Part shown: one piece after another, positions 3,764-63,942 of the stretch
Position numbering within the stretch: position 1 is the first letter of the stretch
How the letters are laid out: each line of letters begins with the position of its first letter
Assembly: GCF_013363755.1 (NCBI RefSeq)
Contig: NZ_CP054841.1
Coordinates: 578,988-642,987, forward strand
From: Comamonas antarctica
GTDB lineage: Bacteria; Pseudomonadota; Gammaproteobacteria; Burkholderiales; Burkholderiaceae_C
DNA length: 64,000 bases
Direction: 5' to 3'
Translations under genes and position numbers: made by a program
Notes under the pieces: model-generated
Database searches by the model: none
What the model saw: the letters and a program-made list of their open reading frames with translations, nothing else
What the model was told of the DNA's origin: nothing

Positions 3764-3776
3764 TTTAGCCGCTAAA
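3764..3776. promoter_or_regulatory. KorB-type operator palindrome (exact)
   Basis: TTTAGCCGCTAAA is an exact match to the IncP KorB operator consensus TTTAGCSGCTAAA. It sits in the short intergenic region between two divergent genes, 67 bases before the start at 3843. A korB homologue is encoded at 54.5-55.6 kb. Binding is inferred from that pairing. Confidence 0.6.
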
Positions 3777-17591: not shown

Positions 17592-17621
17592 TGAGCTGCG
17601 GACGCAGGCACCTGCAGATTT

Positions 17622-18944
17622 TTAGCGGCTGAAACGCGATTTCGGCACTGCCAGGCCGAGGTTTTCCCGCAGCGTCTCGCCCGCATAGCCCTGGGGCAGA
17701 TAGCCGCGCCGGCGCAGCAGGGGCACGACCTGTTCGGCGAAATCGGCGAGTCCGCCCGGCATGAAGGGCGGGATGATGTTGAAGCCGTCGCCCGCGCCGG
17801 CCTCGTACAGGTCGATCAGCCCCTGCGCCACCTGCTCCGGCGTGCCTACCAGCTCGATATGGCCGCGCATGCCGCCGAAATAGCGCGCCGCCGCGGCCAC
17901 CGTCAGCGGCCCGCGCGCGCGCAGGCCGGCGAGGATACCCAGCACGCTGCGCTGGCCGTTGGCCGCGGGCTGGAGTTCGGGCAGCTCGTCTTCGAAGCGC
18001 AGATGCGACAGCTCAAGGCCCAGCTGGTTGCCCAGCACGAACCGGCCATGCTCCAGGTCGACGCCCTGATCCATCTGCCGCACCAGCGCGCGCGCCTCGG
18101 CCTCGGTGGCGCCCAGCACCGGAATCACGCCAGGCATCACGATCACCTCGCGCGGCGTGCGACCGAAATCCGGCAGCGCGGCGTGGAAGCTGCGGCGAAA
18201 CGCCACCGCGGCTGCAAGCGTCGACTGGCGCGTGAAGATCAGCTCGCCCACGCGCGCGCCGAGCTGCGTGCCCGGAATGGAGGAACCCGCCTGCACCAGC
18301 ACCGCCTGCCCCTGCGGGCTGCGCGGCACGGGAATCGGCCCGCGCACCTGGTAGTGCCGGCCCTGGTGATGGAGCGCATGCACGCGCTGCGGGTCGACAA
18401 AGCGGCCGCCGGCCTTGTCGCGCACGAAGGCGTCATCGTCGAAGCTGTCCCACAGCCCGCGCACCACGTCGACGAACTCCTCGGCCAGCGCGTAGCGCTG
18501 CTCATGCGGCGGCAGCTGGTGGTGGTTGAAGTTCTCGGCCACGCCGGCCGAATACGAGGTCACCACGTTCCAGCCCGCGCGGCCGTTGCTCAGCTGGTCG
18601 AGCGAGCCGATCTGGCGCGCGACGATATACGGCGCGCTGTAGGTGGTCGACATGGTCGCCACCAGGCCGATGCCCGGTGTCGTGGCCGCAATCGCCGACA
18701 GCGTGGCCACGGGATCGAGCCGGCGCAGGCGCGAGCCGCTTTCTCCGAGCGAGGTATCGAGCGAATCGCCCAGGAAGAGCGCATCGAAGCCCGCGGCCTG
18801 GGCCATGGCCGCCGCCTGGCGGTGGGCTTCGAAGATGCTGGCATGGCTCACGGCCTGGGGCAGGCGCCAGCCGGCCGAGTGGAAGCCGTCGGTGAAATGG
18901 AAGTAGCCGAGTTTGAGAAAGTCCCTGCGCGTCTTGCCGGTCAT
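17622..18944 (-). CDS. NtaA/SnaA/DszA-type flavin-dependent monooxygenase (LLM class)
   Basis: A 440-residue bacterial-luciferase-fold monooxygenase. Family signatures include GWRLPQAVSHASIFEAHRQAA near the N-terminus, DPVATLSAIAATTPGIGL (about 75-92), NGRAGWNVVTS (about 119-129), FVDPQRVHALHHQGRHY and the phosphate-binding VLVQAGSS. Members use FMNH2 from a partner reductase to oxidise nitrilotriacetate, alkanesulfonates or dibenzothiophene sulfone; the substrate here is not predictable. No flavin reductase is adjacent. Divergent from the recombinase gene. Confidence 0.92.
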   Translation of the reverse strand: MTGKTRRDFLKLGYFHFTDGFHSAGWRLPQAVSHASIFEAHRQAAAMAQAAGFDALFLGDSLDTSLGESGSRLRRLDPVATLSAIAATTPGIGLVATMSTTYSAPYIVARQIGSLDQLSNGRAGWNVVTSYSAGVAENFNHHQLPPHEQRYALAEEFVDVVRGLWDSFDDDAFVRDKAGGRFVDPQRVHALHHQGRHYQVRGPIPVPRSPQGQAVLVQAGSSIPGTQLGARVGELIFTRQSTLAAAVAFRRSFHAALPDFGRTPREVIVMPGVIPVLGATEAEARALVRQMDQGVDLEHGRFVLGNQLGLELSHLRFEDELPELQPAANGQRSVLGILAGLRARGPLTVAAAARYFGGMRGHIELVGTPEQVAQGLIDLYEAGAGDGFNIIPPFMPGGLADFAEQVVPLLRRRGYLPQGYAGETLRENLGLAVPKSRFSR

Positions 18945-52562: not shown

Positions 52563-52855
52563 GGCGATCCTTTGGAAGGGGAGCGCATGATGACAGCCAG
52601 CCCCTGCCGCATCGCGCATCACCTCGCCCACCTGTCAAGCCCTGCCTGCGCCATGGATGCTGTGCCTGAGAGGTCGCCTGCCGCCTTCCCGCAGCGCAGG
52701 GCACGTCGGGTCGTACAGAGGAGACAGGCGCGATTGCAACGCGGGAGTGGCAACGCTGGGCCGGCGCCCCGCGCGCGCGGCTGGCTTGCTACCGGAGGCG
52801 GGATTTACCGACTGTTTCCTTGGTCGGCAGCTTGCGCCGACTGGCGTTTTAGCCG
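52563..52855. other. Intergenic region upstream of the M28 peptidase
   Basis: About 290 bases with the peptidase promoter side on the left and an exact KorB operator at its right edge. On the minus strand, CCTCTCAGGCACAGC (around 52660-52675) with an upstream GAAGGCGGC recalls the 3' half of a glycine riboswitch, but the GGAGAG partner is missing. Nothing else is recognisable. Confidence 0.35.
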
Positions 52856-52860
52856 CTAAA
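52848..52860. promoter_or_regulatory. KorB-type operator palindrome (exact)
   Basis: TTTAGCCGCTAAA, an exact match to the IncP KorB operator consensus. It overlaps the stop codon of the deoxyribosyltransferase gene, so it is not a promoter element of that gene. It could serve as a partition or silencing site about 3.8 kb from korA. Confidence 0.6.
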
Positions 52861-54549: not shown

Positions 54550-55590
54550 TCAGCCCTCGAGCAAGGCCACCAGCGTCACATGCTTCAGGCTGGCCTGCAG
54601 CTCCTGGCCGTCATCGATGTATTGCAGCCAGGCCACGCCCTCGGCGGGCGGGCGGCGCTCCAGCATCAGCCGCGCGGTGCGGTCGTTGTGGCGCACATGC
54701 ACCACGGCCTTCTTCAGCTTGTCGGCCGCTGCCGCTGGTTTGCCGGCTTGGCCCGCGACGGGCGCTTCGGCGCGGCCATTGGCCGCGGCGGCCGGCGCCG
54801 CGGTGGCCGGCGCCGCGGCGGCCGGCGCCGCGCCGGCCACGGGTGCCGGTGCGGACTTCGCATCGAGGAATTCGCGCAGCAGCTTGACCGAGCCGCGCGT
54901 GACTTCCTGATTGGCGTCGCCCAGCCACGCGGCCACATCCTGCGGCGTCTTCTTGTAGGCCGTCATCAGTTCGTTGACCACCGTGACATCGCGCACGCGG
55001 CCGGTATTGAACGCCTCGGCCAGCGGCTCGGGCAGATCGAGCAGCGTCACGTGTTGCGAGATGAAGGCCGGCGACTTGCTGATGGCCTTGGCGATGTCGC
55101 CCTTCTTCACGCCCTTGGCCAGTTCGCGGCCGATGAAGTCGGCGATTTCACGCGCCGTCAACTCGTTGCGCTGCAGGTTCTCGACCACCTGATCGGCTTC
55201 GTTGTAATCGTTGTCGATGAAGCCCGGGATGGTGCTCAGCCCGGCGCGCTGCGCACCGCGAAAGCGCCGGGCACCATGGTTGATCAGGTAGCGGCCTTCG
55301 GCAGCGGGATTCTCGCGCACCGAGATCGGCGTCTTGACGCCGCGCAGCTGGATCGAGGCGGCGAGCTCGTCGAGGCTTTGCGCGGAAAAGCCGGGGTTGT
55401 CCTGGGTGCGCGGCTGGTGCGGATCCTCATCGATCAGCGCCATGTCCAGTGCCAGCGGACCGCCGCCCTGGACCACGGCCTCGGGCCCCGCGAGCAGCGC
55501 CGACAGGTCGCCCATGTCCTCGAGCCCCAGGCCGCCCATCATCGGGCTGGCCGCTTTATCGGAATTTTGCTTCTTGGCTGCGGCATTCAT
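54550..55590 (-). CDS. korB: KorB-type ParB family partition and regulatory protein
   Basis: A 346-residue homologue of IncP KorB. The ParB N-terminal domain (about 45-140) has YLINHGARRFRGAQRAG and ENLQRNELTAREIADFI. The HTH is KKGDIAKAISKSPAFISQHVTLLDLP (about 158-183). An Ala-Pro-rich linker (about 246-285) leads to a KorB C-terminal SH3-like domain (ARLMLERRPPAEG, then DDGQELQA and VALLEG). KorB binds TTTAGCSGCTAAA, represses promoters and acts in partition. Its ATG overlaps the incC stop. Exact operators occur at 3764 and 52848. Confidence 0.95.
   Translation of the reverse strand: MNAAAKKQNSDKAASPMMGGLGLEDMGDLSALLAGPEAVVQGGGPLALDMALIDEDPHQPRTQDNPGFSAQSLDELAASIQLRGVKTPISVRENPAAEGRYLINHGARRFRGAQRAGLSTIPGFIDNDYNEADQVVENLQRNELTAREIADFIGRELAKGVKKGDIAKAISKSPAFISQHVTLLDLPEPLAEAFNTGRVRDVTVVNELMTAYKKTPQDVAAWLGDANQEVTRGSVKLLREFLDAKSAPAPVAGAAPAAAAPATAAPAAAANGRAEAPVAGQAGKPAAAADKLKKAVVHVRHNDRTARLMLERRPPAEGVAWLQYIDDGQELQASLKHVTLVALLEG
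54788..54832. repeat. Three 15-base tandem repeats in the korB linker
   Basis: Units GCGGCCGGCGCCGCG at 54788 and 54818, with a one-base variant at 54803, encode the Ala-Pro linker between the DNA-binding and dimerisation domains. Length change here would alter only linker reach. Confidence 0.8.
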
Positions 55591-56360
55591 TGCGCAATCT
55601 CCATCTTTTCAAAGACATAGGCGGCCAGGCCACGCACTTCCTGCGTGGCTTTGCGGGCCGCGGTCTTGCGGATCTTCCATACCGGCACCCCCGAGGCCAG
55701 CGCATCGGCAATGCTGCTGCGCAGGCCGATGCTGACCGGCACCATCAACTGGGGGTAGGCGGCCTTGAGTTCGGCCTGGTGGCGCACATGGCGCGGGTTG
55801 CGGGCATCGACCTTGGACGGCACCATGCCCAGGAACTGCAGACCCTTGTTTTCCTTGCGCACATTCATGATCGTGGTGAGCATCATCTTGATGCCCTGGA
55901 TGCTGTAGGCCTCGAGTTCGATCGGCGACAGCACGCAGTCGGCGGCATACAGCGCCGCCACCAGCGCCACGCCCAGGCCGGGCGCGGTATCGATCAGGCA
56001 GATATCGAAACCCTGCCGTGCCAGCGCGTCGATATTCGCCTTCATGTTCTTCTTGGCCTTGGGCAGGGGCAGGAACACGGCGTTGGCCAGTTCCGGGTCG
56101 GCCTCGATCAGCACCAGGCGCGGGCCGTCGCCCTGCGCCTGCGCGGCCTGCTGCCAGCCATCGGCCGGCACCGGGCCGAACAGCTGGCTGGCGCGCGCGT
56201 CGATCTTGTACTGTCCCAGCGTGTACGAAGCATTGGCCTGGGTGTCGAGATCGATCACCGCCACGCTCAGCCCGCGTTCGAGAAAGTCGAACGCCAGGTG
56301 CACCACGCTGGAGGTCTTGCCGACACCGCCTTTTTGCTGGGCTACGACCAGGGTCTTCAT
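55587..56360 (-). CDS. incC: IncC-type ParA partition ATPase
   Basis: A 257-residue Walker-type ATPase that closely parallels IncC of IncP plasmids. The deviant Walker A QQKGGVGKTSS is at 8-18, then VIDLDTQANASYTLGQY, CLIDTAPGLGVAL, LSPIELEAYSIQGIK, FLGMVPSKVDARNPRH and the terminal SSIADALASGVPVWKIRKTAARKA. It segregates the replicon with KorB. ATGA overlaps on both sides couple its translation to korA (56357) and korB (55590). Confidence 0.97.
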   Translation of the reverse strand: MKTLVVAQQKGGVGKTSSVVHLAFDFLERGLSVAVIDLDTQANASYTLGQYKIDARASQLFGPVPADGWQQAAQAQGDGPRLVLIEADPELANAVFLPLPKAKKNMKANIDALARQGFDICLIDTAPGLGVALVAALYAADCVLSPIELEAYSIQGIKMMLTTIMNVRKENKGLQFLGMVPSKVDARNPRHVRHQAELKAAYPQLMVPVSIGLRSSIADALASGVPVWKIRKTAARKATQEVRGLAAYVFEKMEIAQ

Positions 56361-56653
56361 ATTTTTGATCCGTTGTTCCTGGCCTGTGCGTCCTCGGCCC
56401 ATTTCCTGACGATGAATGCCTGGTGCTGCGGCAGCACCGCCGACACCCGCTCGAAGCCCGGCGGCAGATGGGCGCGCCAGACCCGCTGCACCGCCTGCGA
56501 CACCGCGCCCTTGCTCAGGCCCAGGGTGTGCACGAACGATGCCTGCGTCAGCCCGCGCACCAGCACGCCATGGGCAATCTGCAGCGTCTGCGCACCCAGT
56601 TCCAGGCCGTGGATGCACGCCTGGAATTGCCCTTCGCTGAGCCGTTTGCGCAT
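56357..56653 (-). CDS. korA: KorA/TrfB-type transcriptional repressor
   Basis: A 98-residue homologue of IncP KorA: KRLSEGQFQACIHGLELGAQTLQIA at 3-27, HTH with QASFVHTLGLSKGAVSQAVQRVW (about 36-58), and the dimerisation tail RVSAVLPQHQAFIVRKWAEDA. KorA represses its own operon by binding GTTTAGCTAAAC, which occurs exactly 43 bases upstream. First gene of korA-incC-korB. Confidence 0.95.
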   Translation of the reverse strand: MRKRLSEGQFQACIHGLELGAQTLQIAHGVLVRGLTQASFVHTLGLSKGAVSQAVQRVWRAHLPPGFERVSAVLPQHQAFIVRKWAEDAQARNNGSKI

Positions 56654-56695
56654 GGATTCCCCACTGGTTGCAGGCCGGTGCCGGACACGGCACAG

Positions 56696-56707
56696 GTTTA
56701 GCTAAAC
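56696..56707 (-). promoter_or_regulatory. KorA operator (exact) at the korA promoter
   Basis: GTTTAGCTAAAC is identical to the IncP KorA operator. Read on the minus strand it contains a possible -10 (TAGCTA), with TCGACC 15 bases upstream as a weak -35, so KorA binding would block the promoter. Confidence 0.85.
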
Positions 56708-56726: not shown

Positions 56727-56739
56727 TTTAGCTGCTGAA
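56727..56739 (-). promoter_or_regulatory. Degenerate KorB operator next to the korA promoter
   Basis: TTTAGCTGCTGAA differs from TTTAGCSGCTAAA at the centre and at one arm position. It sits about 20 bases upstream of the KorA operator, echoing the paired KorA/KorB sites of IncP korA promoters. Confidence 0.5.
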
Positions 56740-56805: not shown

Positions 56806-57561
56806 TCAGGACACCTGCACCGAGCGGCCGATGAAGTGAATCGGCCCGGTCGGGCGGCCCGTGGGCGAGCCGGTGCTCGGCTCGAGCGTGAGCTCGAACA
56901 ACTGGTTTGGCTGTACGCCCGGAATCTGGTCCAGCGGCACCTGCACGCGCTGGCCGGGCTTGACCAGGCCCAGCGACACCGGCGCGTTCCAGGCATCGGC
57001 CTTGGTCCAGAGTTCCAGCGCCTTGCCGGCCGGCACTTCGGCCATGCCCAGCGGAATCAGCTCGATCTGGCGCGTACTGCTGGTCTGCATGACCCAGCCT
57101 GGCGCACGGTCCTCGGGCGCCACCAGCACCACCATGTAACGCGTGCCGGGCTGCGGTGCGGCCTGCAGCAGCAGCACCGCGGCCAGCACGGCCGCGATGG
57201 CAAAGCCGCCCGCCGTGAGGCCGCGCCACAGGGCCAGCGACTCGAGATCGCGCCACCAGGGCAGGGGCTGGCGCGCCGCCGCGGCAGCGCGCGCAGCCTT
57301 GGCCTGCGGCAACTGGTCGAGGCTGCGCGTGATGCGCGGCCACAGCTGCGCCGGCGGCAACTCCGGCTCGACCAATGACAGCAGCGGCAGGAAGCGCTGT
57401 TCCCAGTCGGCCACGGCGGCGCGCAGCGCAGGGTTGGTGGCCAGTTGCGCGGCCACCGACTGGTGTTCGGCGCGCGACAGCGTGCCCAGCACATACTCGC
57501 CGGCCAGCGCCTGGAGGCGGTCGCCGTCGTTGGGGGTGATGGCAGAAGTAAAGGAATTCAT
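56806..57561 (-). CDS. Anti-sigma factor (RskA-type)
   Basis: A 251-residue protein. The N-terminal cytoplasmic anti-sigma region (LQALAGEYVLGTLSRAEHQSVA) covers about 15-90. One membrane helix (about 118-137) and a periplasmic anti-sigma-K domain follow (APGWVMQTSSTRQIELIPLG, then GKALELWTKAD). It holds the co-encoded sigma factor inactive. Its ATG overlaps the sigma stop (bases 57558-57561), the classic coupled arrangement. Confidence 0.92.
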   Translation of the reverse strand: MNSFTSAITPNDGDRLQALAGEYVLGTLSRAEHQSVAAQLATNPALRAAVADWEQRFLPLLSLVEPELPPAQLWPRITRSLDQLPQAKAARAAAAARQPLPWWRDLESLALWRGLTAGGFAIAAVLAAVLLLQAAPQPGTRYMVVLVAPEDRAPGWVMQTSSTRQIELIPLGMAEVPAGKALELWTKADAWNAPVSLGLVKPGQRVQVPLDQIPGVQPNQLFELTLEPSTGSPTGRPTGPIHFIGRSVQVS

Positions 57562-58205
57562 GACATGCAGGCCCGCAGGGCTACCAGGCTGCGCTGGATC
57601 CAGGCTTTGACAGTGCCAAGCGGCGCAGACACCCGCGCGGCAATTTCCTTTTGCGTCAGGCCGTCGACGTAGGCATACAGGATGCAATCGCGGCGCACCG
57701 GCTCGAGCTCCGACAGGCAATGGCCGACGCGCCCGGCGCTGTCTGCCCACGCCCCGGCGCGGTTGACCGCGTCCCAGGCCGCCAGCGAGGCCTGGTCATC
57801 GAGCACCTGCAAGGTCTCCTGCGGCAGATCGGCCTCGCGCAGGTCGTCGCGCCGGGCATTCAGCGCCAGATTGCGCGCCACGCTGTAGATCCAGCCGCGC
57901 GCCGAGCCGCGGGCCGGGTCGAAACTCGTGGCGCGGGTCCAGATGTTCACCCAGGCATCGTGCAGCACATCCTCGGCCAGCGCGCCATCCCGCACGATGC
58001 GGCGCACCACGGCCAGCAGGCGCGCCGCTTCCTGTTCATAGAGCCTTTGCAAGGCCGCGCGCTCGCCCGCGGCGCAGGCCAGCAAGGCGGCTTCATAGTT
58101 GAAATCTTCGCAGGGGACAGGCAAGTTCGGGGCTCCAGGAAGGTGAGGCTTGGCTGCGCAAGCAGCAGGGCCGAAGGCCGTGCATCCGGGATCATGCCAT
58201 GCCAT
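57558..58205 (-). CDS. ECF-family RNA polymerase sigma factor (SigK-like)
   Basis: A 215-residue product as drawn. Sigma region 2 has AGERAALQRLYEQEAARLLAVVRRIV and LAEDVLHDAWVNIWTRATSFDPARGSARGWIYSVARNLALNARR. Region 4 has VRRDCILYAYVDGLTQKEIAARVSAPLGTVKAWIQRSL. The first 35 residues (MAWHDPGC...) look unlike sigma factors, so the true start may be internal, nearer DFNYEAALLA. The stress signal is unknown. Confidence 0.9.
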   Translation of the reverse strand: MAWHDPGCTAFGPAACAAKPHLPGAPNLPVPCEDFNYEAALLACAAGERAALQRLYEQEAARLLAVVRRIVRDGALAEDVLHDAWVNIWTRATSFDPARGSARGWIYSVARNLALNARRDDLREADLPQETLQVLDDQASLAAWDAVNRAGAWADSAGRVGHCLSELEPVRRDCILYAYVDGLTQKEIAARVSAPLGTVKAWIQRSLVALRACMS

Positions 58206-61435: not shown

Positions 61436-62374
61436 TCAGGCCTCCCGCCGCGCGACCAAGCGGCCGGCGGCCAGCGCGTCAAGGAAGTTCTGCGTCAGCG
61501 GCCGAGCGGCGCGCCGGCCGTTGCGTTCCTCCAGCAGCATGCCGCAGGCATCGACCGTTACCTTCAGCTGCGCATCGCGGCTCTGGAAGGTCTGGCCGGC
61601 AAATGCCGCGGCTTTTTCCTGCAGGTAGCTCTGCTGTTGCTGATCCCGAGCGTCGATGGCTGCGGCTTGGGCCCGCTGGCCGAAATCCCTCTTGCTATCC
61701 AACAGCGCGCGCAGATAGGCATAAAGCCTGCGTCCCTCGAGCTTTTCCAGATATTGGCGCGTGGCACCGACCACATCCGACAGGGTTTGCTTGGCCTGCT
61801 TTGCGCGCTTCATGAGCTGCAAGACGCCGGTGGCTTGCACGCCCTGGTCGCGTACCAGCCAGGCCAGGTCGGAGGGCAGCTTGAGCTTGCCGATGGTTGC
61901 GAAATGCGTGTTGCCGTCGCTGGCCAAGGATTGCGCGGCCGGTCGCGCGGCTGGCACGGGAGCGGGCGCAACGCGCGCCTGGGATGCCAGCACCGGGGGC
62001 TTGCCCACATGCGTGCGGTCGGTCAGCAGCAGTGCTTCGAGGAGCTTGAGCGTGGGAATCAGCGGAGAGCTCGACCCACGAAGTCCGGCGCGGGCTTTCT
62101 GCAGCCTTTCAATCAATCCGCGGTCTTCCAGCCACTTCACGACACGGTGAACGGTTTCCACCGATTTTCCCGATTCTTCGGCAAGTGTGCCGCGACTGGC
62201 CAGAATCGGCGAATTCAGCCGATTCAGGTTGATTTTCTTGATGATGCGAAAAATCACCCGCAGGTAGCCGTCGGGAACATCACGGAAAGTGGGCGACTCA
62301 TCGAGCGCCGAGCAGGCGCGCGCGATCATGGAAGGGTAGACAGTAGGGGCGAGCGTTTCCATCGCAGTCTCCAA
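61436..62374 (-). CDS. Putative replication initiator with winged helix
   Basis: A 312-residue protein. The N-terminal region (FRDVPDGYLRVIFRIIKKINL) leads into a winged helix (LASRGTLAEESGKSVETVHRVVKWLEDRGLIERL, about 58-92). An Ala-Pro linker and a basic, helical C-terminal half (about 170-300) follow. I assign a replication role from the HTH layout and its place beside structured DNA and parB; this is inference. ATG at 62374, or 62362. Leader region carries a predicted antisense RNA. Confidence 0.65.
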   Translation of the reverse strand: METAMETLAPTVYPSMIARACSALDESPTFRDVPDGYLRVIFRIIKKINLNRLNSPILASRGTLAEESGKSVETVHRVVKWLEDRGLIERLQKARAGLRGSSSPLIPTLKLLEALLLTDRTHVGKPPVLASQARVAPAPVPAARPAAQSLASDGNTHFATIGKLKLPSDLAWLVRDQGVQATGVLQLMKRAKQAKQTLSDVVGATRQYLEKLEGRRLYAYLRALLDSKRDFGQRAQAAAIDARDQQQQSYLQEKAAAFAGQTFQSRDAQLKVTVDACGMLLEERNGRRAARPLTQNFLDALAAGRLVARREA

Positions 62375-62629: not shown

Positions 62630-62645
62630 GTTTATGCGTATAAAC
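62630..62645. repeat. 16-bp palindrome-like site, copy 1
   Basis: GTTTATGCGTATAAAC; one central pair departs from perfect symmetry. One of four such sites between rep and parB. Confidence 0.8.
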
Positions 62646-62710
62646 AGTTGGAGGTGGCGGTAACCGCCCTCCAGCCGCGCCCGTGGTTGGCGCTCCGCAC
62701 ACGGCTTGCT

Positions 62711-62726
62711 GTTTATGCGTATAAAC
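62711..62726. repeat. 16-bp palindrome-like site, copy 2
   Basis: GTTTATGCGTATAAAC, with symmetry extended outward by GCT and AGC, so the full element is 62708-62729. Confidence 0.8.
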
Positions 62727-62776
62727 AGCAGGCTTCGACGCCGGGCTCCCGGGCGTACCCAGGCTGCCGGCTTGCT

Positions 62777-62792
62777 GTTTATACGTATAAAC
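62777..62792. repeat. 16-bp palindrome, copy 3 (perfect)
   Basis: GTTTATACGTATAAAC is a perfect palindrome and probably the core consensus of the set. Confidence 0.85.
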
Positions 62793-62889
62793 ATCATTGA
62801 TGCCCAGAGGAAGAAGTCTCTGGTTCAAGGCCAACTTGGCAGGAAATGCACTCAGCCATGCCGCGTTGCGGACATGGGCTGGCATACCC

Positions 62890-62982
62890 TGCAGATACGC
62901 ATGAATTCCACCGGCGCGCTGGCGCAAGGCCGACCGCACGCCAATTGGCGTACGGATTAGTGGAAATCCATGCGTATCTGCA
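62890..62982. repeat. Long inverted repeat with central palindrome
   Basis: TGCAGATACGCATG..TTCCA at 62890-62910 is repeated inverted at 62961-62982 (TGGAAATCCATGCGTATCTG, then CA). Between them lies the perfect palindrome ACGCCAATTGGCGT (62938-62951). Confidence 0.75.
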
Positions 62983-63070
62983 GCATTGCCGCTCGAGGCA
63001 AGCTTGCGCGACGCCGACGAGCAGCAGGCAAATGCGAGAACCCGCCGCGCATGCGCACGCATGACGGCGG

Positions 63071-63086
63071 GTTTATGCGTATAAAC
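63071..63086. repeat. 16-bp palindrome-like site, copy 4
   Basis: GTTTATGCGTATAAAC immediately beyond the parB stop codon, identical to copies 1 and 2. Confidence 0.8.
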
Positions 63087-63090
63087 AGCT

Positions 63091-63942
63091 TTAGTCATGG
63101 CCGCCAGGTTTCTCGGCCGCCGGAACTTTCTCCGGCTCGGGTGCGAGCACCACGGCCACCGTGTCCAGCAGGTTTTCCAGCGCCGTGGCAAATGCAAGGC
63201 GCTTGTCGTCTGGCACGGCAATCGACACCTCGAAAACATCGCCTCGTTGCTTGTAGTAGCCGTTGGAGTACTTGATCTGCTTGGATGGACTCGCGCTTTT
63301 GCCACCCGAAGGATTGAGCAACGCCTGCGCCTGGTTGGAGAGCCAGCGCAGCGGCTGGTCCTCGGCGGCAAACTTGTTGGCCAGCGATACGGCGCGACGC
63401 TGGCCGCATTTCTCGTACACCTTGAGCAACTGATAGGCGGCATTGGCGCCGAACTTGTCTGGATGCTGGCGAACCAACTCCAGCAAATCCTCCGGCAGCC
63501 TGGCGTATGCCCGATAGAAGCTCATCAAGGTTTTCGACAGCTTGGCGCGGCGCGCGATATCCGAGGCGGACTCGCCGGCCACGATCAGCTTTTCATAGAA
63601 CATCGCGCGGTCGAAGTCGCAATGCTGCTGCCGGCATTCGTTTTGCTCGTAGCCGAACCACGCCGATTCCTCGAGGCTCAGATCCAGGTGGATTTCAGCC
63701 AGCAGCGAATCGAAAACCTTGTGTTCCCGGCAAGCCTGCACGCGTGTCCAGCCATCACAGATGATGAACCGGCCCGCAGCGCTGGGATTGGGAATGACAT
63801 GAATCGGATCGTGTTGGCCCTGGGTACGCAGATTTTCCGCACGCTGCAGGATCATCTCCGACGTATAGACTTCACGCGGTGCCAGCGGATTCGGATCGAT
63901 CAACTCCAGATTGATCTGCAGCAGCTGGCGTTCGTGCGCCAT
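63091..63942 (-). CDS. ParB-family partition protein (second, not KorB)
   Basis: At least 283 residues. N-terminal ParB-like domain (about 1-100) has DPNPLAPREVYTSEMI, PIHVIPNPSAAGRFIICDGWTRVQACREH and YEQNECRQQHCDFDRAMFYEKLI. HTH is ESASDIARRAKLSKTLMSFYRAYARLP (about 125-150). A helical C-terminus follows. It is distinct from KorB. The frame stays open from the ATG at 63942 to the window end, so the true start may lie outside. A parA may lie upstream. The adjacent 16-bp sites are candidate parS. Confidence 0.85.
   Translation of the reverse strand: MAHERQLLQINLELIDPNPLAPREVYTSEMILQRAENLRTQGQHDPIHVIPNPSAAGRFIICDGWTRVQACREHKVFDSLLAEIHLDLSLEESAWFGYEQNECRQQHCDFDRAMFYEKLIVAGESASDIARRAKLSKTLMSFYRAYARLPEDLLELVRQHPDKFGANAAYQLLKVYEKCGQRRAVSLANKFAAEDQPLRWLSNQAQALLNPSGGKSASPSKQIKYSNGYYKQRGDVFEVSIAVPDDKRLAFATALENLLDTVAVVLAPEPEKVPAAEKPGGHD

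Follow-up and report, generated by a model that had tools for sequence, protein, structure and literature searches.

The stretch of Comamonas antarctica DNA considered here (the window, 64,000 nucleotides) carries what is, by its gene order and domain content, an IncP-type korA-incC-korB operon, and it ends together with contig NZ_CP054841.1, a replicon of 642,987 bp that we call C2 (the window is C2:578988-642987). Our preferred view, at a probability that we would put a little short of one half (roughly 0.46), is that KorB loads at operators dispersed over C2 as a sliding clamp which marks or maintains the replicon as a whole, and that it does not act mainly as a switch for single promoters. 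A bolder version, in which a plasmid repressor has been turned into the chromatin-like clamp of a chromid, with 9-15 self-renewing sites that arise as the replicon takes up DNA and mark about 600 kb of largely accessory sequence for segregation or silencing, next to a separate ParABS system that has clustered sites of its own, we regard as rather unlikely; if true, the step from KorB to chromid clamp would parallel, independently, the one from ParB to Noc. What the sequence itself establishes is the operon with its promoter layout, the operators with their conservation and turnover across five genomes, and the lack of trfA in these genomes.

Few regulatory sites of plasmids are as well studied as the KorB operators, which, to our knowledge, have always been seen on circles only tens of kilobases long. 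In the present case the site extends over roughly tenfold more DNA, in one clade, and at places that are mostly species-specific. It becomes possible to test how the control protein of a mobile plasmid turns into a permanent part of a large, vertically inherited replicon, and whether a ParB-type clamp depends on particular neighbour genes or just on frequent loading. Among the matches listed from the open-licence literature, no paper describes, in the portions available, KorB operators spread over a secondary replicon.

C2 is the large secondary replicon (643 kb) of a 5.03-Mb assembly (G000) that also comprises C1 (4,206,721 bp), on which all five 16S ribosomal RNA genes lie, and C3 (175,731 bp). 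It is likely circular, since the ParA cognate to a ParB at the window end sits at the opposite end of the contig. Its GC (guanine plus cytosine) content is 67.7% versus 64.0% in ten 20-kb stretches of C1, the GC skew along it gives no clear origin signal, and a scan for transfer RNA genes returned two doubtful matches that were not used. Among 53 genomes of the genus, C. antarctica counted, five carry this KorB: C. antarctica itself, Comamonas endophytica 5MLIR (G208), whose operon lies on plasmid unnamed1 (NZ_CP106882.1), and the draft assemblies G225, G237 and G204, whose operator contigs are assumed to form one replicon. Genes on C2 and in the other genomes were called with our own codon-usage caller.

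KorB operators over a whole replicon

The exact KorB operator, TTTAGCSGCTAAA, occurs ten times on C2 and not once on C1 and C3, the other 4.38 Mb of the genome. Chance would put 0.0026 copies on C2 (order-0 expectation), 119 other palindromes with permuted half-sites have no occurrence there, and with random placement of the ten over the genome, all of them would fall on C2 with a probability of 1e-9. The other carriers have 9 (C. endophytica), 15 (G225), 13 (G237) and 9 (G204) sites, and no exact site was found in any of the eight genomes tested among the 48 non-carriers. The 15 and 13 site places of G225 and G237 recur, respectively, in the genomes recorded as Acidovorax sp. CCYZU-2555 and Pantoea sp. 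18069. The 647-kb record of the C. endophytica plasmid actually holds ten sites, one being a duplicate in an end repeat: its last 54.9 kb (592,638-647,507; L090-L093) repeat the first 54.9 kb at 99.96% identity, which is likely assembly redundancy, the real replicon being about 592.6 kb. The IncP plasmid pAKD4 packs 11 exact sites into 56.8 kb (0.19 per kb), against about 0.016 per kb on C2. Beyond the genus, six other genomes with a KorB relative were compared. Exact sites gather on one contig in Variovorax sp. UMC13 (11 of 11), a Rhodoferax metagenome-assembled genome (10 of 10) and Burkholderia sp. SRS-W-2-2016 (11 of 12), Xenophilus has three, all within 4 kb, and two Duganella with a 55% identical KorB have none and one.

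The 56 distinct sites of the five carriers fall into 33 ortholog groups, of which a single one is represented in all five genomes and 19 consist of one site in one genome. C2 and the C. endophytica replicon have four operator places in common, and 6 of 10 and 5 of 9, respectively, differ; 5 of the 10 sites on C2 and 4 of the 9 on the sister replicon lie beside a gene that has no reciprocal best match in the other. Alignments of orthologous sites, covering 7 of the 33 groups (with 3 of the 5 sites in one of them), show the operator as an identical core between diverged flanks. A mobile repeat bearing the operator was considered and rejected, the flanks being near background beyond about 10 bp, and so was the idea that operators mark synteny breakpoints, gene adjacency being kept at 4 of 10 sites on C2 and 3 of 9 in C. 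endophytica versus 25% and 27% among all gaps with a length of at least 60 bp.

The one site common to all five genomes is at or close to the stop codon of a deoxyribosyltransferase-like gene (annotated so in C. endophytica). On its other side, three genomes have a gene of M28-peptidase type and two a kinase-like one (partial frames, by our own reading). Where the site and korB are on one contig, in four genomes, the distance between them is 0.6-3.9 kb, and pAKD4 has a KorB site just behind korB. Leaving out three of the 56 sites, which have no neighbour on one side, 31 of 53 lie in tandem, 13 in convergent and 9 in divergent gaps, and these gap types make up 43, 23 and 34% of the intergenic bases of C2. 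Gaps with divergent promoters are thus not favoured, 9 of 53 sites standing against that 34%. One of the 13 convergent calls, at C. endophytica site 292338, is tandem by annotation, our caller having overlooked two annotated genes there; the annotation shows no convergent gap at any of the nine distinct C. endophytica sites, and at G204 site C211:12706 the caller found no gene nearby.

The operon and a second Par module

The sequence-only reading had recognised three overlapping genes of KorA, IncC and KorB type behind an exact KorA operator, and it was right on both counts: neighbouring genes, all read from the minus strand, have four bases in common, order, domains, coupling and matches to RK2 structures agree (that of KorB at 4.3e-106), and the operator is in place (Table 1). 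It is exact at the korA promoter in four of the five carriers, G204 having one mismatch, and there is one exact copy on each of the two complete replicons, C2 and the C. endophytica plasmid. The KorB operator at the same promoter is degenerate in the window, reads TTTAGCAGCTAAA in C. endophytica and G237, and is exact in G204 and pAKD4; the window keeps the layout of KorB operator and KorA operator found in pAKD4. Compared with the IncP-1 operon of RK2, and of pAKD4 as the nearest relative here, gene order, overlaps, domains, promoter layout, operator core and the KorB residues for CTP and KorA contact are alike, whereas the replicon of about 600 kb, the lack of a TrfA match, the missing IncC1 start of the window, the single KorA operator and the sparse KorB operators are not.

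Table 1. Features discussed in the text; positions are those of the window, except where C2 is given
Feature	Position	Strand	Remarks
korB	54550..55590	-	346 aa, ParB family; KorB_C 1.2e-17, KorB 2.3e-12, ParB_N 2.1e-14
incC	55587..56360	-	257 aa, ParA-type ATPase, short IncC2-like form; AAA_31 8.2e-30
korA	56357..56653	-	98 aa repressor; Pfam KORA 1.1e-28; RK2 KorA structures matched at 2.1e-31
KorA operator GTTTAGCTAAAC	56696..56707		korA promoter; exact, sole exact copy in the 5.03-Mb genome
Degenerate KorB operator	56727..56739		beside KorA operator; 2 mismatches
Exact KorB operator	52848..52860		over stop codon of deoxyribosyltransferase-like gene, 1.7 kb beyond korB; the site common to all five carriers
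Exact KorB operator	3764..3776		between divergent genes
KorB operator near-match	17621..17633		1 mismatch
Sigma-70 factor and anti-sigma gene pair	56806-58205		directly upstream of korA; same place in C. endophytica
Winged-helix protein	61436..62374	-	RepL 2.4e-4, 21.1 bits vs cut-off 20.3 (weak)
Four GTTTATRCGTATAAAC palindromes	62630..63086		at 62630, 62711, 62777, 63071; likely centromere of second Par system
Second ParB	63091..63942	-	TIGR00180 6e-14, below cut-off; start likely upstream across the contig end
ParA of second Par system	C2:101-1177		

Much of what we suggest for KorB leans on RK2, whose KorB is a sliding clamp dependent on cytidine triphosphate (CTP) that can reach and silence promoters at distances of up to 1.5 kb, counted from the operator, with KorA locking the clamp at target promoters and making silencing strong (PMC11790492). 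The same work assigns R117 to CTP binding, N146 to clamp closing and F249 to the contact with KorA (PMC11790492), and the equivalents of all three are kept in the window KorB when it is aligned to RK2 KorB (8qa8). Since these residues are kept, the window KorB may well close with CTP and slide as RK2 KorB does; it presumably binds the operators described above, and IncC presumably still acts on it. At the position of RK2 KorA Tyr84 the window KorA has Phe, and we rejected this as a sign of altered function, for Phe is also found in pAKD4 and most relatives, and in RK2 assays it works as well as Tyr (PMC2680271).

IncC is less straightforward, for its long form, IncC1, is doubtful. The usual start of this form at -13 of korA is missing in the window, although the frame there stays open upstream and contains GTG at -40 and +35. 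The corresponding frame opens only inside korA in C. endophytica (ATG at +35) and is closed by stops inside korA in G225, G237 and G204. In RK2, IncC1 binds DNA much better than IncC2 does (PMC2666795).

C2 has, in addition, a ParA-ParB-Rep module about 5-7 kb from the operon, and the two are adjacent on both complete replicons. Its ParB is 95% identical over 91% of its length to a C. endophytica plasmid ParB and has relatives of 27-30% on large Burkholderia and Caballeronia replicons. The palindrome GTTTATRCGTATAAAC, which presumably resembles parS of Burkholderia chromosome 2, occurs four times on C2 and four times on the C. endophytica plasmid, always beside the module, with none on C3 (C1 was not searched). 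The winged-helix protein, which has a 39.7% relative annotated RepL, is likely a RepL-like replication initiator by its sequence; its closest relatives (76-100%) are found in the same five of the 53 genomes as KorB, and two more genomes have relatives of 60%. Given this separate module with its four clustered palindromes nearby, the operon is probably not the sole or the main partition system of C2. The G204 draft, for its part, has three relatives of the likely initiator (L218, L222, C761) and, by our own reading, two operator-bearing trbI-trbJ-like regions (C211, C390; L184, L186), and it may hold two replicons of the C2 type.

Clamp, regulon or something else

Our proposal runs as follows. 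KorB and KorA would still autoregulate the operon, as is likely, and with TrbA also trbB. Silencing locked by KorA is predicted only at korA, because the exact KorA operator is single; elsewhere KorB would load and slide with no KorA to stop it, in a role for the whole replicon that could be segregation with IncC, or compaction and marking. Operators would have gone on appearing, in many cases next to genes missing from the sister replicon, because selection, in our proposal, would act on their presence on the replicon and not on the neighbour gene. It is the lack of a KorA stop elsewhere, the turnover of positions, the change of gene partners and the lack of preference for divergent promoters that make us favour this over a local role. 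DNA clamps of the ParB/Noc type act from many sites scattered across a large replicon that also has a separate ParABS system with clustered sites. C2, as known from sequence, resembles them in all of this: a ParB-family protein, many exact sites on the one replicon with none elsewhere in the genome, and a separate Par module; it is unlike them in that its KorB derives from a plasmid regulator. According to one study, ParB-family proteins may be nucleoid-associated proteins more than has been thought (PMC6961859).

Several observations weigh against this view, and some of them speak at the same time for another one, namely that KorB is a replicon-wide transcriptional regulator whose clamps slide to nearby promoters and dampen them, with accessory metabolic genes in the regulon; this we consider possible, at odds clearly below even. 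By annotation, each of the nine distinct C. endophytica sites is flanked on one side or both by a gene start. Some sites are likely regulatory, because the one between trbA and trbB is at the same place as in pAKD4 and another lies between the divergent genes traG and traL. The silencing range of RK2 KorB, up to 1.5 kb (PMC11790492), would let even sites distant from a promoter regulate. A second Par system already serves C2. Even spacing of the sites was looked for and not found. No site among the 56 reaches as far as 30 bp into a called gene (the two G204 sites C211:1399 and C390:637 are in the first codons of genes that we read as trbJ-like, an arrangement also seen in pAKD4), and of the 19 sites of C2 and the C. 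endophytica replicon, 4 overlap a stop codon; yet stop codons are built into the operator itself, in two of three frames on either strand, and this partly forces an intergenic, near-stop placement. Other 13-mers offer no independent null, for those with the same built-in stops, 11 on C2 and 13 on the sister replicon, are nearly all operators, and none is inside a called gene; for these reasons we withdrew the P value for gene avoidance. Sites within 40 bp of a stop codon number 6 of 10 on C2 (P 0.001) and just 2 of 9 on the C. endophytica replicon (P 0.32), and a general rule of stop-codon placement, clear on C2 only and open to the same objection, is not claimed. What tells against a regulon is that gaps with promoters are not preferred (9 of 53 sites divergent, 13 called convergent), that the gene partner changes at the site common to all five genomes while the operator stays, and that each complete replicon has a single exact KorA operator, when strong silencing in RK2 needs KorA (PMC11790492).

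The remaining explanations seem to us improbable to different degrees. The operon could guard against incoming IncP plasmids, resident KorA and KorB silencing the trfA and kor promoters of the invader, with the spread operators as a secondary matter. This is improbable but not far-fetched: the KorA operator and the core of the KorB operator are the same as those of pAKD4, and both proteins act jointly on the RK2 trfA promoter (PMC4820964), but it leaves unexplained why ten operators are kept on the resident replicon and why they turn over. That the operon is the main partition system of the replicon we think quite improbable. RK2 partition reportedly needs only incC, korB and the site OB3 (so the title of a 1998 paper by Williams), and OB3, we assume, is located behind korB; in the four genomes where they share a contig with it, incC and korB have an operator 0.6-3.9 kb away, and a long IncC from another start is conceivable in the window. 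Against this stand the ParA-ParB-Rep module with its four clustered palindromes, adjacent in both complete replicons, the missing IncC1 start and the frame closed inside korA in three of five carriers. The suggestion made from the letters of the window, that the operon had been adopted as the partition and control system of a large replicon, survives in part: the large replicon is borne out, control gains support from the ten exact operators on C2, and a plain partition system is not supported. Very improbable, finally, is a neutral remnant of an IncP plasmid with its operators as leftovers. The C. antarctica genome has no match to relaxase family PF03432 and none to TrfA, and its transfer genes are scattered, all as a remnant would have it; chance, however, would leave about 0.003 operators, many of the actual ones stand beside genes that the sister replicon is without and stay exact within diverged flanks, and this conservation already speaks against leftovers.

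Descent and the IncP genes elsewhere on C2

KorB is 79-100% identical among the five carriers, and the next matches in the 53 genomes are other ParBs at 1e-15 or weaker. The window protein is about 70% identical to KorB of pAKD4 and 88% to the C. endophytica copy (first 245 residues). In a tree of 30 distinct sequences, from which duplicates and the second-name records of G204 and G237 had been dropped, the five carriers form one clade (100/100) with pAKD4 nearest (94/93) and do not fall inside a recent IncP insertion, the placement that would have spoken against the sequence-only reading. Its proposed check, whether related genomes carry the operon on a secondary replicon, comes out positive for the C. 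endophytica plasmid, where the genes beside the operon correspond to those of the window. The same five are also top of the 53 in SecA identity (100, 96, 96, 95 and 92%, the next being 85%). As KorB, the closest initiator relatives and the top SecA identities coincide in the same five genomes, the data fit vertical inheritance of the replicon in one clade. The KorB tree pairs the window with C. endophytica and SecA identity is higher to G225 and G237, a disagreement that makes some exchange possible. The C. endophytica replicon shares with C2 not only operon, neighbourhood and operators but also trb/tra genes and the same ParA-ParB-Rep module; the two have 245 reciprocal best protein pairs only, out of 533 (C2) and 498 called genes. 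One trait of a chromid, being a clade-stable secondary replicon with plasmid-type replication and partition genes, is seen in C2, its replication function as a prediction.

The claim that an IncP backbone is missing stood for one half and fell for the other. TrfA has no match in any of the five carrier genomes searched (positive controls 4 of 4). Outside the window, however, C2 has genes for TrbA, B, E, F, G, I, J and L plus TraG and TraL, those for TraG and TraL being adjacent; TrbA, B, E, F, G, J and L exceed the NCBIfam cut-offs, and TrbI and TraL are under the curated ones. None was seen in the 14 kb around the operon, the remainder of the window not having been scanned for them. PF03432, the only relaxase family searched, has no match in C. 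antarctica, and it matches in 1 of 14 control genomes and, somewhere in their genomes, in three of the five carriers; in C. endophytica the matches are on contigs C1 and C3 of that genome, with none on the replicon of the operon. Since trb and tra genes are on C2, yet neither TrfA nor PF03432 is found, we read it as a large replicon over which IncP-type parts are scattered and not as an IncP plasmid itself. Its type IV secretion system may serve another plasmid or some other purpose. These IncP-type mating-pair genes, with TraG and TraL, stand at L023:4626-16622 and L039:10239-13233.

C2 is, on our best reading, a vertically inherited megaplasmid with a dispersed IncP-type backbone. An IncP-type conjugative plasmid related to pAKD4 would have fused with, or grown into, a replicon run by the ParA-ParB-Rep module, after which the trb and tra genes would have dispersed and a single KorA operator would have been left. 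As a minor point of bookkeeping, the record named Pantoea sp. 18069 (L116 / G237) has a SecA 96% identical to that of the window organism and is placed in its genus group, so that its name looks wrong.

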